From the NCBI GenBank assembly GCA_026004195.1, contig BPIQ01000002.1:558001-622000 (forward strand): a DNA stretch of 64,000 bases, in the 5' to 3' direction. Position 1 is the stretch's first letter; each line of letters starts with the position of its first letter. This DNA comes from Candidatus Binatia bacterium (GTDB lineage: Bacteria; Desulfobacterota; Binatia; HRBIN30; BPIQ01). Positions 53,635 through 59,696 of this stretch are shown here, piece by piece. A program made the position numbers and the translations under genes. Below the pieces are notes generated by a model that did no database searches, had not been told where the DNA came from, and worked only from the letters and a program-made list of their open reading frames with translations.

Positions 53635-53754
53635 CACGCCGCGGTCCTCGCCTCCCCCCCGGCAGCTCGAACCATGCCGGGTAGCAGGCGGCGCCCTGGC
53701 TCCTCGAGGCCCTCCGAAGGCGCCCCGTTGCTGCCGGCCCAGGGGAGGATTAGT

Positions 53755-54873
53755 ATGCTTGGCGTGGCGACGCTCAAGGAAATCCTCGAAGCACGCACGG
53801 CGGAAGCAGCGCCGGAGCTCCACGAGAAGCTCCCGGACAAGGCGGTCCGTTGTTACGCCTGCGGGCACCGGTGTTACATCCCCGAGGGCAGGGTCGGCAT
53901 CTGCAAGGTCCGCTTCAACCGCGGCGGGACGCTCTACGTCCCCAAGGGCTACGTGGCCGCGTTGCAGTGCGACCCGATCGAAAAGAAGCCCTTCTTCCAC
54001 GTCCGACCCGGGGCGCTGGCCTTGAGCTTCGGCATGCTCGGTTGCGACTACCACTGCGCCTACTGCCAGAACTGGCTCACCTCGCAGGCACTCCGAGACC
54101 CGGCTGCGGTCTCGCCGATCCACGACATCCGTCCCGAGGAAATCGTGGAGCTCGCCTTGCAAGAGGGGGCAGAGGCCATCGTCAGTACCTACAACGAGCC
54201 GCTCATCACGAGCGAGTGGGCCGTCGACGTGTTCCGGGTCGCCAAGCAGCACGGGCTGCTCACGGGTTACGTCTCCAACGGGAACGGTACCCCCCAGGTG
54301 CTCGAGTACATCCGTCCCTGGACCGACCTCTACAAGATCGACCTCAAGGGTTTCGACGACAAGCACTACCGGAAGCTCGGAGGGGTCCTGCAAAACGTCC
54401 TCGACACGATCCGGAACGTTCACAAGCTGGGCTTCTGGCTCGAGGTGGTGACGCTCGTCGTCCCCGGATTCAACGACTCCGACGAGGAGCTCAGGAACAT
54501 CGCGCGCTTTCTCGCGGGGGTCTCCCCGGACATTCCCTGGCACGTGACGGCTTTCCATCCCGACTACAAGATGACCGACCGGGACCGGACCAGCGTCGAG
54601 ACCCTTCTCCGCGCGGCCCGGATCGGAGAAGAGGAAGGCCTGCGCTACGTGTACGCCGGCAATATCCCGGGACGGGTGGGCCGCTACGAGGACACGCGCT
54701 GCCCGAGCTGCGGTAAAGCGGTGATCGAGCGAACCGGGTATCTCGTTCGGAAAAACCACCTGAAAGACGGCCGGTGCCCGGATTGCGGCACCTCGATTCC
54801 CGGGGTTTGGCGCAAGCCGCAGGCACGGGACTTCACCTACGAGAGGGCCGTGCCGAGACCCGTCTGGCTCTGA
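53755..54873 (+). CDS. AmmeMemoRadiSam-type radical SAM protein
   Basis: Encodes 372 aa with a very good ribosome site (AGGGGAGGA). The radical SAM cluster motif is C97-D-Y-H-C101-A-Y-C104. The N-terminal RCYACGHRCYIPEGRVGIC (Cys33, 36, 40, 50) and the C-terminal CPSCGKAV ... CPDCGTSIPG are extra metal sites. It matches the radical SAM component of the AmmeMemoRadiSam system and PflA-like activases. The Memo and AMMECR1 partners are not in this window. The reaction is unknown. Confidence 0.9.
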   Translation: MLGVATLKEILEARTAEAAPELHEKLPDKAVRCYACGHRCYIPEGRVGICKVRFNRGGTLYVPKGYVAALQCDPIEKKPFFHVRPGALALSFGMLGCDYHCAYCQNWLTSQALRDPAAVSPIHDIRPEEIVELALQEGAEAIVSTYNEPLITSEWAVDVFRVAKQHGLLTGYVSNGNGTPQVLEYIRPWTDLYKIDLKGFDDKHYRKLGGVLQNVLDTIRNVHKLGFWLEVVTLVVPGFNDSDEELRNIARFLAGVSPDIPWHVTAFHPDYKMTDRDRTSVETLLRAARIGEEEGLRYVYAGNIPGRVGRYEDTRCPSCGKAVIERTGYLVRKNHLKDGRCPDCGTSIPGVWRKPQARDFTYERAVPRPVWL

Positions 54874-55564: not shown

Positions 55565-55639
55565 GGGATTTCCCTCCTTCGCGGGGACGTCTTACCCCTC
55601 CCTTGGCAGGAAATCGAACGCGGGATCCCAGGACGAAAC

Positions 55640-56160
55640 GCCGCTCCCCGGACGCGTCGGAACGCGTCCCGCCGGGTGCGCATCGACTTCCACGCGACGT
55701 TCCGAACGTGCGAATCGGAGGGCCACGCTCTGTCGTGGCCGTGTTCGCCGACGGCGGGAACGCCGATCCCTGGATGCGAACGGCCGTCGTTCCTCCGCCT
55801 CCCCCCGGACGCGACGGAGCGCGTCCCCCCGGCGTGCCCATCGACCTCCACGCGACGTTCCGAACGTGCGAATCGGAGGGCCACGCTCTGTCGTGGCCGT
55901 GTTCGCCGACGGCGGGAACGCCGATCCCTGGATGCGAACGGCCGTCGTTCCTCCGCCTCCCCCCGGACGCGACGGAGCGCGTCCCTCCGGGTGCCCATCG
56001 ACCTCCACGCGACGTTCCGAACGTGCGAATCGGAGGGCCACGCTCTGTCGTGGCCGTGTTCGCCGACGGCGGGAACGTCGATCCCTGGATGCGAACGGCC
56101 GTCGTTCTCCCGCCCCGCCCCGGACGCGACGGAGCGCGTCCCGCCGGCGGGTCGCGCCGG
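55640..56160. repeat. REP/BIME array D, three 158-bp tandem units
   Basis: Type-1 hairpins at 55650-55669 (loop TCGGAA), 55807-55826, 55965-55984 and 56122-56141. Inverted type-2 hairpins at 55721-55740, 55879-55898 and 56036-56055. The period is 157-158 bp. A roughly 38-bp spacer (GTTCGCCGACGGCGGGAACG then TCGATCCCTGGATGCGAAC) is nearly identical to that of the long units at 31388-31915. The array lies between the VOC gene start (55564) and the nitrilase stop (56163). Confidence 0.93.
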
Positions 56161-56162
56161 TT

Positions 56163-57101
56163 TCACCCCGAGAACACGACCGGCGGAAGGGGTTCGCGGT
56201 TGACGGAAAGGGAGAACACGTCCGGACGGGCGTAGTGGCCGGCTACGTCGAGAGACCGCCTCGCCCTCCGGGCAGCTTCGGGATCGACTTCGGCGTAAAG
56301 AATCCCTTTTTCCCGGTGAAGCGGACCGGCGACCACCTTGCCGGCGGGGTCGACCACGACGGCGTCCCCGTCGTTGATCCACTCGTCCGCCGCAAAGAGC
56401 GCCTCGCGTCCCGGAAAGTCCTCGGGCACGTCGGAGGAATGAAGCGCCGTGGCCGTGCCCACCACCCAGCAGCCTCCCTCGCGCGCGATGTGACGCAACG
56501 TCACGAGACACCCTTCCCCCGAATCCCAGGTGGGGTTCACGAAGATCTCCATCCCCTGGGCGTAAAGGGCGTAGCGGGCAAGCGGCATGTAGCTTTCCCA
56601 ACAAACGAGGCACCCGAGCTTGCCGGCCGGAGTATCGACGACGCGAAGGCCACTCCCGTCCCCCATGCCCCAGACCATCCGCTCGGGGTTGGTCGGCACG
56701 AGCTTTCGGTGACGATTCCGGATCGTGCCGTCGGGCCCGATCACGACGACGGAGTTGAAAAGCGTCGTGCCCGAGAACCGGCTGTCGACCTCGTGGATCC
56801 CGAGGACCACCGTCACGCACCGCTTGCGTGCGGCGTCGCAAAGCGGGTCCAGGTGTCCCGCGCTCGGGTCGACGGCGTTCTGCCGGAGCCGAGCGTGGAT
56901 CTCGGCGGAAAGTCTCATGTCGCCCCCGGGCCTCAACCGCCAGATCCACGTCGGATAGCCCGGAACATAGGCTTCGGGAAAGACGAGCAACGAGGCATCG
57001 GCGTCGGCAGCCTCGTGCAGCGATTCGAGCGCCCTTTCGATCGTCCGCTCCCGGTCGAGCAACACGGGAGGTCTGGGAATCACGGCAATTCTGGTCCGCA
57101 T
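56163..57101 (-). CDS. nitrilase-family carbon-nitrogen hydrolase
   Basis: Encodes 312 aa. The triad is complete: Glu43 in LLVFPEAYVPGYP, Lys133 in NRHRKLVPTNPER and Cys167 in LGCLVCWESYMPLARY. The spacing and the CWExYMPLARxxLY motif point to true nitrilases (aliphatic or aryl nitrile to carboxylic acid plus ammonia) rather than amidases. The C-terminal region (VVDPAGKVVAGPLHREKGILYAEVD) is typical. Its 5' leader contains a perfect 15-bp hairpin ending 20 nt before the ATG. Confidence 0.93.
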   Translation of the reverse strand: MRTRIAVIPRPPVLLDRERTIERALESLHEAADADASLLVFPEAYVPGYPTWIWRLRPGGDMRLSAEIHARLRQNAVDPSAGHLDPLCDAARKRCVTVVLGIHEVDSRFSGTTLFNSVVVIGPDGTIRNRHRKLVPTNPERMVWGMGDGSGLRVVDTPAGKLGCLVCWESYMPLARYALYAQGMEIFVNPTWDSGEGCLVTLRHIAREGGCWVVGTATALHSSDVPEDFPGREALFAADEWINDGDAVVVDPAGKVVAGPLHREKGILYAEVDPEAARRARRSLDVAGHYARPDVFSLSVNREPLPPVVFSG

Positions 57102-57536: not shown

Positions 57537-58271
57537 TCACCCGAAGTCGACGAGCACCGGTGGCGGGCCCGGCAGCTCGAGAAGGCCGAGCGCCCGGTCG
57601 AGGACCCTGTGCTGGAGCTCCGGGTCGTGGGGACGGCCGAGGGGGTAGCCGTGGGGGAACGGGACGAAGAGCGCGCGAGGCGGGCGGACCTTCTCGGCGA
57701 CTTCCCGCAGGAGCTGGATCGCGACCGTGGAGATTCCCCGTCGCTCGAGCTCCGCTGCGACCAGGCCCACGGCCTGGTTGCAGAAAGGTCAAACGGGCAC
57801 GAGGAGTGCCACGTCCACGCCGTCCGCGCGCAACTTCTCCGCTACCTCGGGGGCCGTTCGGCGGACGAGCCTACCCGGGGCGGTAATCGACCCCATGAAG
57901 GAGAAGTGCCTCCGGTTCACGCTCCCGATGCGACCCCGGGTCGCGAGCTCCCGCACCCGGTCGACCGGGAAGGCGAGATTCGGGTCCGCGCGCATCCCCG
58001 TGTGGTCGAAAGCCTCGCTTCGGTGCGTGTCCACGAGAGCCGACGCATCGACGTCGGACGGGATTTCCCGGAACGAAACGTCGCCGCCGCGGACGGATTC
58101 GTCGAAAGGTTCCTGCCCGCGGACGACGAAGCCCGCGCTCGAGACGAGCGCCAGGCGACACTCGGAAAGCGGCTTCCGGAGAGGAGTCCACGGCACGGGA
58201 TGGATGCGCCGCCAGGGATACGTCCGCAAGAGCAGCCGCAAGGGGAGAGAAAACTCGTCGAAAGACCCCAC
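57537..58271 (-). CDS. selenoprotein of the glycine/sarcosine/betaine reductase B-like family
   Basis: Encodes 244 residues from a GTG at 58271 if the UGA at 57789-57791 is read as selenocysteine (residue 161). The frame runs GSFDEFSLPLRLLLRTYPW, FVVRGQEPFDESVRGGDVSFREIP, DPNLAFPVDRVRELATRGRIG and GVDVALLVPV, then Sec-Pro-Phe-Cys, then NQAVGLVAAELERRGIS. Family homologues have Cys or Sec in this UxxC redox motif. The frame stays open for 83 more codons with family-like sequence. Substrate and partners are unknown; no grd or prd genes are near. Neighbours are a nitrilase and an M20 peptidase. Confidence 0.88.
57760..57778 (-). promoter_or_regulatory. candidate bacterial SECIS hairpin
   Basis: Just after the UGA (57789-57791) the minus strand can fold a 7-bp stem, ACCAGGC with GCCTGGT, closing a 5-nt loop CGTGG. 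The loop begins 17 nt after the UGA and has G as its second base. Both fit the published bacterial SECIS rules (apical loop 16-37 nt from UGA, a G among its first two bases). It overlaps the coding sequence, as expected for bacteria. It would be bound by SelB. Confidence 0.7.
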
Positions 58272-58283
58272 GAAAAACGCTCC

Positions 58284-59696
58284 CTACCGGGGCCGCGCGG
58301 CGTGGTCCGCCAGGATCCGCGCCACACAGGCCGTGAGGCGCCGCGCCGTAGGAAGGTGCAGGAACTCGTTCGGGCCGTGCGCGTTCGACCGCGGCCCGAG
58401 AACGCCCGTGATGACGAACTGAGCCCGCGGGTAGGCCCGGCCCAGCATGGCCATGAACGGGATCGTCCCGCCTTCTCCGATGTAGGCCGCAGGCCTGCCG
58501 AAAAATTCTTGCGACGCCCTCTGGAGCGACTCGCCGAGCCACGCTTCTTCGTCCGGCGCGTTCCAACCGTCCGCGACCTGATCTCCGTCGAACGACACCT
58601 CGGCACCGTAGGGAGGATCGGTTTCGAAGGTCCGGCGCACGACGTCACGAGCCTGCTTTGCGTCGAGCGTCGGAGGCAGCCGTAGCGAGACCCGGAGCGC
58701 GGTCTCGGGCCTCAGGACGTTTCCGGCCGAGTGGAGAGGGGGCAGACCGCCGGCACCGATGATTTCCAGTTGCGGTTTCCAGGTCCGTCCCAGAAGGAGC
58801 TCCCGGGGGTCGTCGTGGACGGGCCGCACGCCGGGCCGAAACGGATACTCCCGGTGGACCGTTTCGCCGAGAATCGCTGCCGCTTCCACGAGCTGGCGGC
58901 GGCGGGAGTCGGGCACCTCGACGTGGAGCTCGGTCGGCAGGATCTCCCCCGTCCGCGAGTCCTCGAGCCGCGAAAGGAGTTCCCTCGCGATCCGGAACGA
59001 CGAGGGGACGATGCCGCCCGCCCCACCCGAGTGCACGCCTTCGTCCAGCACGCGGACGCGAAGCGTGCCGTTCAGCAGCCCGCGCAGCGAGGTCGTCACC
59101 CAGAGACGCTCGTAGTCACCGCAACCCGAGTCGAGGCACACCACGAGACTCGGACGGCCGATTTTCTCGCGTAGCGTCTCGAGGTAGGCAGGCAAATCCG
59201 GGCTCCCGCTTTCCTCGCAGGCCTCGACCAGAACGACACAACGGGCGTGCGGAATCCGGTTTCGCTCGAGCGCAGCGACCGCGAGAGTCGCTGCGAAAAG
59301 AGCGTATCCGTCGTCGGCTGCGCCGCGACCGTAGAGCCGATCACCCCGCCGCACGGGCTTCCAGGGGCCCAGGCCTTCGGCCCAGGGCTCCATGGGGGGT
59401 TGTTTGTCGATGTGACCGTAGAGCAGCACCGTGTCGTCCCCCTGCCCGGGGACTTCGAGCCAGAGAAGCGGCGTTCGCCCGGGAAGCCGGTGCACTTCGA
59501 GGGTGAGATTCGGCACCCGCTCCCCGTGGACCCAGTCGACGCAAAGCTCGAGAGCCCGCTCCATGTGGCCGTTCGAGGCCCATTCGGGATCGAAGGCGGG
59601 AGACTGGTTGGGGATGGCGACGTAGCGTTCGAGAGCGGGGAGGACGCTCGAAGCCCACCGCTCCTCGACGAAATCGGCGATCTGTCGCGAGTCCAT
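58284..59696 (-). CDS. M20 family metallopeptidase
   Basis: Encodes 470 aa from the ATG at 59696. Zinc ligands are visible: His in VLLYGHIDKQPPMEPW, Asp in RLYGRGAADDGYA, Glu-Glu in VVLVEACEESGSPD, Asp in CLDSGCGDY and His in NEFLHLP. The inserted dimerisation domain lies at about 205-385. The HIDKQPP motif resembles carnosinase-like dipeptidases (CNDP type). The selenoprotein gene begins 12 nt after its stop, so the two are probably cotranscribed. Confidence 0.93.
   Translation of the reverse strand: MDSRQIADFVEERWASSVLPALERYVAIPNQSPAFDPEWASNGHMERALELCVDWVHGERVPNLTLEVHRLPGRTPLLWLEVPGQGDDTVLLYGHIDKQPPMEPWAEGLGPWKPVRRGDRLYGRGAADDGYALFAATLAVAALERNRIPHARCVVLVEACEESGSPDLPAYLETLREKIGRPSLVVCLDSGCGDYERLWVTTSLRGLLNGTLRVRVLDEGVHSGGAGGIVPSSFRIARELLSRLEDSRTGEILPTELHVEVPDSRRRQLVEAAAILGETVHREYPFRPGVRPVHDDPRELLLGRTWKPQLEIIGAGGLPPLHSAGNVLRPETALRVSLRLPPTLDAKQARDVVRRTFETDPPYGAEVSFDGDQVADGWNAPDEEAWLGESLQRASQEFFGRPAAYIGEGGTIPFMAMLGRAYPRAQFVITGVLGPRSNAHGPNEFLHLPTARRLTACVARILADHAARPR

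Follow-up and report, generated by a model that had tools for sequence, protein, structure and literature searches.

PrdB, the selenocysteine subunit of D-proline reductase, was described in Clostridium sticklandii (Kabisch 1999, cited in PMC1088965). The Sargasso Sea survey treated PrdB as a known selenoprotein with a UXXC motif and, with 42 sequences, found it to be the third most abundant known family (PMC1088965), and the GOS metagenome yielded 235 sequences of PrdB selenoproteins in 38 samples, assigned to pfam07355 (PMC2398784); in both data sets PrdB is one of the most frequent selenoproteins. PrdB with its UxxC motif is also listed as a selenoprotein in recent reviews (one of them PMC13188914). 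PrdB-like selenoprotein genes are well known, this kind of gene having been described since 2005 or earlier (PMC1088965, PMC2398784). Here we analysed a 64,000-nucleotide stretch of DNA (the window) from a Candidatus Binatia bacterium, the minus strand of which carries a PrdB/GrdB-like gene, running from 58271 to 57537, whose frame is split by a single in-frame UGA. The initial annotation had read this gene as a UGA-recoded selenoprotein, and the sel genes of the genome, the conservation of Sec or Cys at the site, a covarying hairpin and the constraint downstream of the UGA all supported that reading. Judged from sequence comparison, it is highly probable that this is a genuine selenoprotein gene, in which the UGA at 57791-57789 is decoded as Sec161 to give a full-length, 244-aa PrdB/GrdB-like protein.

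When the TGA was taken as a residue, the region from 58271 to 57537 formed one frame, VGSFDEF...GVDVALLVPV-U161-PFC-NQAVGLVAAELERRGI...VDFG, and the motif around residue 161 of the 244-aa translation was VPV-U-PFC-NQAVGLVAAELERRG. The position of the UGA and its residue number had been given exactly at the outset; the strand, which had been left implicit, is the minus strand. The closest homologues have an identical MGxxxEF start and end near residue 243-249. Coordinates of the gene, its neighbours and its putative signals are collected in Table 1. The M20 peptidase gene and the PrdB-like gene possibly share a transcript. At the related loci no neighbouring homologues of the nitrilase, M20 peptidase or aldo/keto reductase genes were found, and the neighbourhood is not conserved. 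A reading of the terminal UGA (57539-57537) as a further Sec codon was rejected, as the ends of close homologues vary slightly there and conservation stops; a plus-strand frame across the region was rejected as a high-GC artefact. Elsewhere in the window, a tandem array (55639-56147) of a 157-bp GC-rich unit, in 3.2 copies with 95% match, sits between glyoxalase-family and nitrilase-family genes and is covered on each strand by long spurious frames. The window also harbours a gene (53674-54873) for a Radical SAM protein with a Radical_SAM domain, which we take to resemble PflA/AmmeMemoRadiSam enzymes.

Table 1. Features of the PrdB/GrdB-like locus and its flanking genes (window coordinates).
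Feature	Position	Strand	Basis or detail
PrdB/GrdB-like selenoprotein CDS (probable), 244 aa	57537..58271	-	GTG start 58271-58269, terminal TGA 57539-57537
In-frame UGA, predicted Sec161, first residue of UPFC (UxxC) motif	57789..57791	-	33/33 TGA loci, Cys homologues
SECIS-type hairpin, 7-bp stem	57760..57778	-	Fold, family covariation, bSECIS constraints of PMC13188914
Possible lower stem extending the hairpin	57755..57783	-	MFE fold only; conservation incomplete among relatives
AGGGAG, Shine-Dalgarno-like, 8 nt before GTG start	58280..58285	-	Sequence
M20-family peptidase gene, upstream, ends 12 nt before start codon	58284..59702	-	PF01546 1.3e-20
Carbon-nitrogen hydrolase (nitrilase family) gene, downstream	56163..57101	-	PF00795 4.5e-43

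The host genome, 3.63 Mb in size and 98.9% complete, was searched family by family. The four genes whose presence the initial annotation had proposed to check were all found, namely selA (563.8 bits), selB (359.9 bits), the tRNA-Sec gene selC (71.2 bits; anticodon TCA according to ARAGORN) and selD (327.6 bits). The selD gene (L021, G000:C3:9607-10527) itself encodes a selenoprotein, with an in-frame TGA in the active site AGGUARK; therefore selD also needs UGA decoding, and it is likely another misannotated gene. UGA still serves as a stop elsewhere, several neighbouring genes of the window ending in TGA. No evidence was found for a genome-wide reassignment of UGA to an ordinary amino acid; against it stand these genes, the PrdB-like gene with its own terminal TGA among them, as well as the presence of tRNA-Sec and SelB, and we assign such a reassignment a vanishingly small probability. 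Homologues of the PrdB-like protein were detected in 118 of 193 related genomes, and selA exceeded the cut-off in 113 of these 118 as compared to 49 of the 75 genomes without a homologue (Fisher p 3e-8, with the relatedness of the genomes uncorrected). The five homologue-bearing genomes without a selA over the cut-off (G008, G099, G126, G152 and G189) may owe this to gaps in fragmented assemblies. Some related genomes (G139, G113, G128 and G049) gave 7 to 13 matches to the PrdB-like protein, suggesting an expansion of the family in some lineages.

The codon for residue 161 was TGA in all 33 matched loci, window included, and among the matches listed nearly all homologues had exactly one internal TGA. 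Loci with TGA at this codon include contigs labelled Gemmatimonadetes, Deltaproteobacteria and Planctomycetota. A lone UGA in an otherwise open frame resembles a recent nonsense mutation, and the frame could in principle be that of a pseudogene, or be broken by a base error in sequencing. However, dozens of independent assemblies, spread over several phyla, carry TGA at this codon, and conservation is as strong in the half after it as in the half before it, which makes a pseudogene or sequencing error extremely improbable. Clostridial PrdB genes have TGA at the Sec position, and so does prdB on a Ligilactobacillus salivarius plasmid (L073 2001-2594), where it lies beside prdA. More distant homologues from Roseomonas, Haematobacter and Enterococcus carry TGC or TGT at residue 161. 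The usual counterpart of Sec is Cys, not Trp or Arg. Every aligned homologue has Sec or Cys at this residue, as the proposal of a Sec or Cys there had anticipated, and alignment columns 161 and 164 were invariant (26 sequences). Across the six closest loci dN was 0.11-0.20 past the UGA vs 0.17-0.35 before it, at a downstream dS of 0.6-1.55; the downstream value exceeded the upstream one in one marginal case (L030, 0.204 vs 0.189). Such low downstream dN at dS of about 0.6 or more indicates that the downstream half is translated and under purifying selection. This selection, together with the Cys that homologues have at this residue and the covarying hairpin described below, argues against a genuine stop yielding a 160-aa protein and against unprogrammed readthrough with another amino acid; although UGA is the normal stop of other genes in the window, we regard both as very unlikely.

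Just downstream of the UGA, ACCAGGC (57778-57772) and GCCTGGT (57766-57760) pair around the loop CGTGG (57771-57767). The details first reported for this hairpin all proved right: a 7-bp stem separated from the UGA by 10 nt, and a loop separated from it by 17 nt, with G as the second loop base. In the MFE fold the hairpin has 8 bp and a GUG loop of 3 nt, and it gains a 4-bp lower stem. The bSECIS model describes a loop of 3-9 nt on a stem of 4-16 bp, with G in the first two loop positions, the loop lying 16-37 nt from the UGA and the MFE being <= -7.5 kcal/mol (PMC13188914). The window's hairpin, with its 5-nt loop, 7 bp and 17 nt distance, lies within these ranges, at -11.2 kcal/mol in the 7-bp form and -13.8 kcal/mol in the 8-bp form. 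Chance was assessed by sampling synonymous sequences for the peptide according to local codon usage. For the window alone, 6% of the synonymous samples also gave 7 Watson-Crick pairs at the spot (p 0.06) and 1.1% folded as well (energy p 0.011). Taken singly, the hairpin is mildly unusual for its codons, which is only suggestive; it is convincing because it is conserved across relatives. For many homologues fewer than 0.5% of synonymous-codon samples paired as well (p below 0.005), and three Cys-encoding homologues, in which the SECIS hairpin is absent, showed no excess pairing over their synonymous samples. Among 31 distinct sequences, which are related to one another and hence not independent trials, 97.7% of stem cells were paired, and three stem pairs had changed on both sides, with 26 double-change cells. 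Stem covariation was 0.371 vs 0.153 in shuffles and collapsed when the register was slid; neither the paired fraction nor the double-change cells nor the covariation was reached in 500 shuffles. Rfam reported one tRNA only in the window and, on a few related loci, tRNA-Sec alone with any confidence, so that the evidence for a SECIS rests on the family alignment. SelB carrying Sec-tRNA(Sec) would bind this hairpin, and Sec would be inserted at residue 161 to complete a 244-aa protein with a UPFC redox site.

The protein had been assigned to a GrdB-related family. It does match PF07355 (GRDB) at 42.9 bits, above the gathering score of 22, and the match covers profile positions 207-345 of 347, the C-terminal part of GrdB only; the assignment is thus refined, the sequence being nearer to PrdB (TIGR04483) than to full-length GrdB. 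The TIGR04483 match (136.1 bits, 1.3e-39) and an identity of 30-35% to the PrdB of Clostridia and Enterococcus would suit a catalytic PrdB of D-proline reductase. That score, however, lies below the curated equivalog cut-off of 300 bits. In addition, a profile search did not find PrdA in the host genome, and PrdA exceeded the cut-off in none of the 193 related genomes, yet the same profile, as a positive control, found it in four control plasmids. A part in glycine, betaine or sarcosine reductase is opposed by the absence of GrdA from the host genome, although control genomes likewise gave no GrdA match over the cut-off. No prd or grd genes were present among the neighbours. A role as a subunit of either kind of reductase is therefore improbable, and since PrdA and GrdA are absent, the protein is a stand-alone PrdB-like protein rather than a D-proline or glycine reductase as defined. 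The likeliest reading, on sequence grounds, is that of a PrdB relative acting as a stand-alone Sec/Cys oxidoreductase.

As a selenol/thiol oxidoreductase, the protein may use Sec161 to attack or reduce its substrate, a small molecule or a disulfide, with Cys164 resolving the intermediate. It would act alone or with a partner other than PrdA/GrdA, because both of these are absent. A search of solved structures by sequence found no relative, and an AlphaFold model built on a four-sequence alignment was of low confidence (pLDDT 63.5, and below 50 around the motif), with no significant fold match, so that the proposed chemistry has no structural support. PrdA/GrdA-free PrdB-like selenoproteins are frequent in the class of this organism, sometimes with several per genome. 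We hold the chances to be even that they constitute a functionally distinct family of Sec-dependent oxidoreductases, catalysing a reaction yet to be discovered, and that the metagenome label 'proline reductase' is wrong for them. A gene that standard gene calling would truncate very probably encodes a full selenoprotein, and as this PrdB-like selenoprotein stands alone in PrdA-less genomes, the label "D-proline reductase" should not be transferred without biochemistry.

The PrdB of C. sticklandii (TIGR04483) resembles the window's protein in length (~240 aa), in having UxxC at the same place and in homology over the full length. The present protein differs in its identity of 30-35%, in having no PrdA partner in its genome and in scoring below the equivalog cut-off. 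No hairpin of the window's type was found at the same position in clostridial PrdB genes, which presumably use another hairpin. With GrdB (PF07355, glycine reductase selenoprotein B) the homology is confined to the C-terminal half, UxxC lying just after the profile end; by comparison the window's protein lacks about 190 N-terminal residues, and its genome is without GrdA. The proteins of Roseomonas haemaphysalidis and Haematobacter massiliensis annotated as 'glycine/sarcosine/betaine reductase selenoprotein B family protein' are stand-alone as well and have the motif at the same position, but they carry CxxC, with Cys (TGC) for Sec, lack the SECIS hairpin and are about 60 aa longer. The PrdB selenoproteins from the Sargasso Sea and GOS collections, likened by their published description, share both family and motif with the window's protein, and most likely fall into one group with it, that of PrdB-like selenoproteins from outside the Clostridia.
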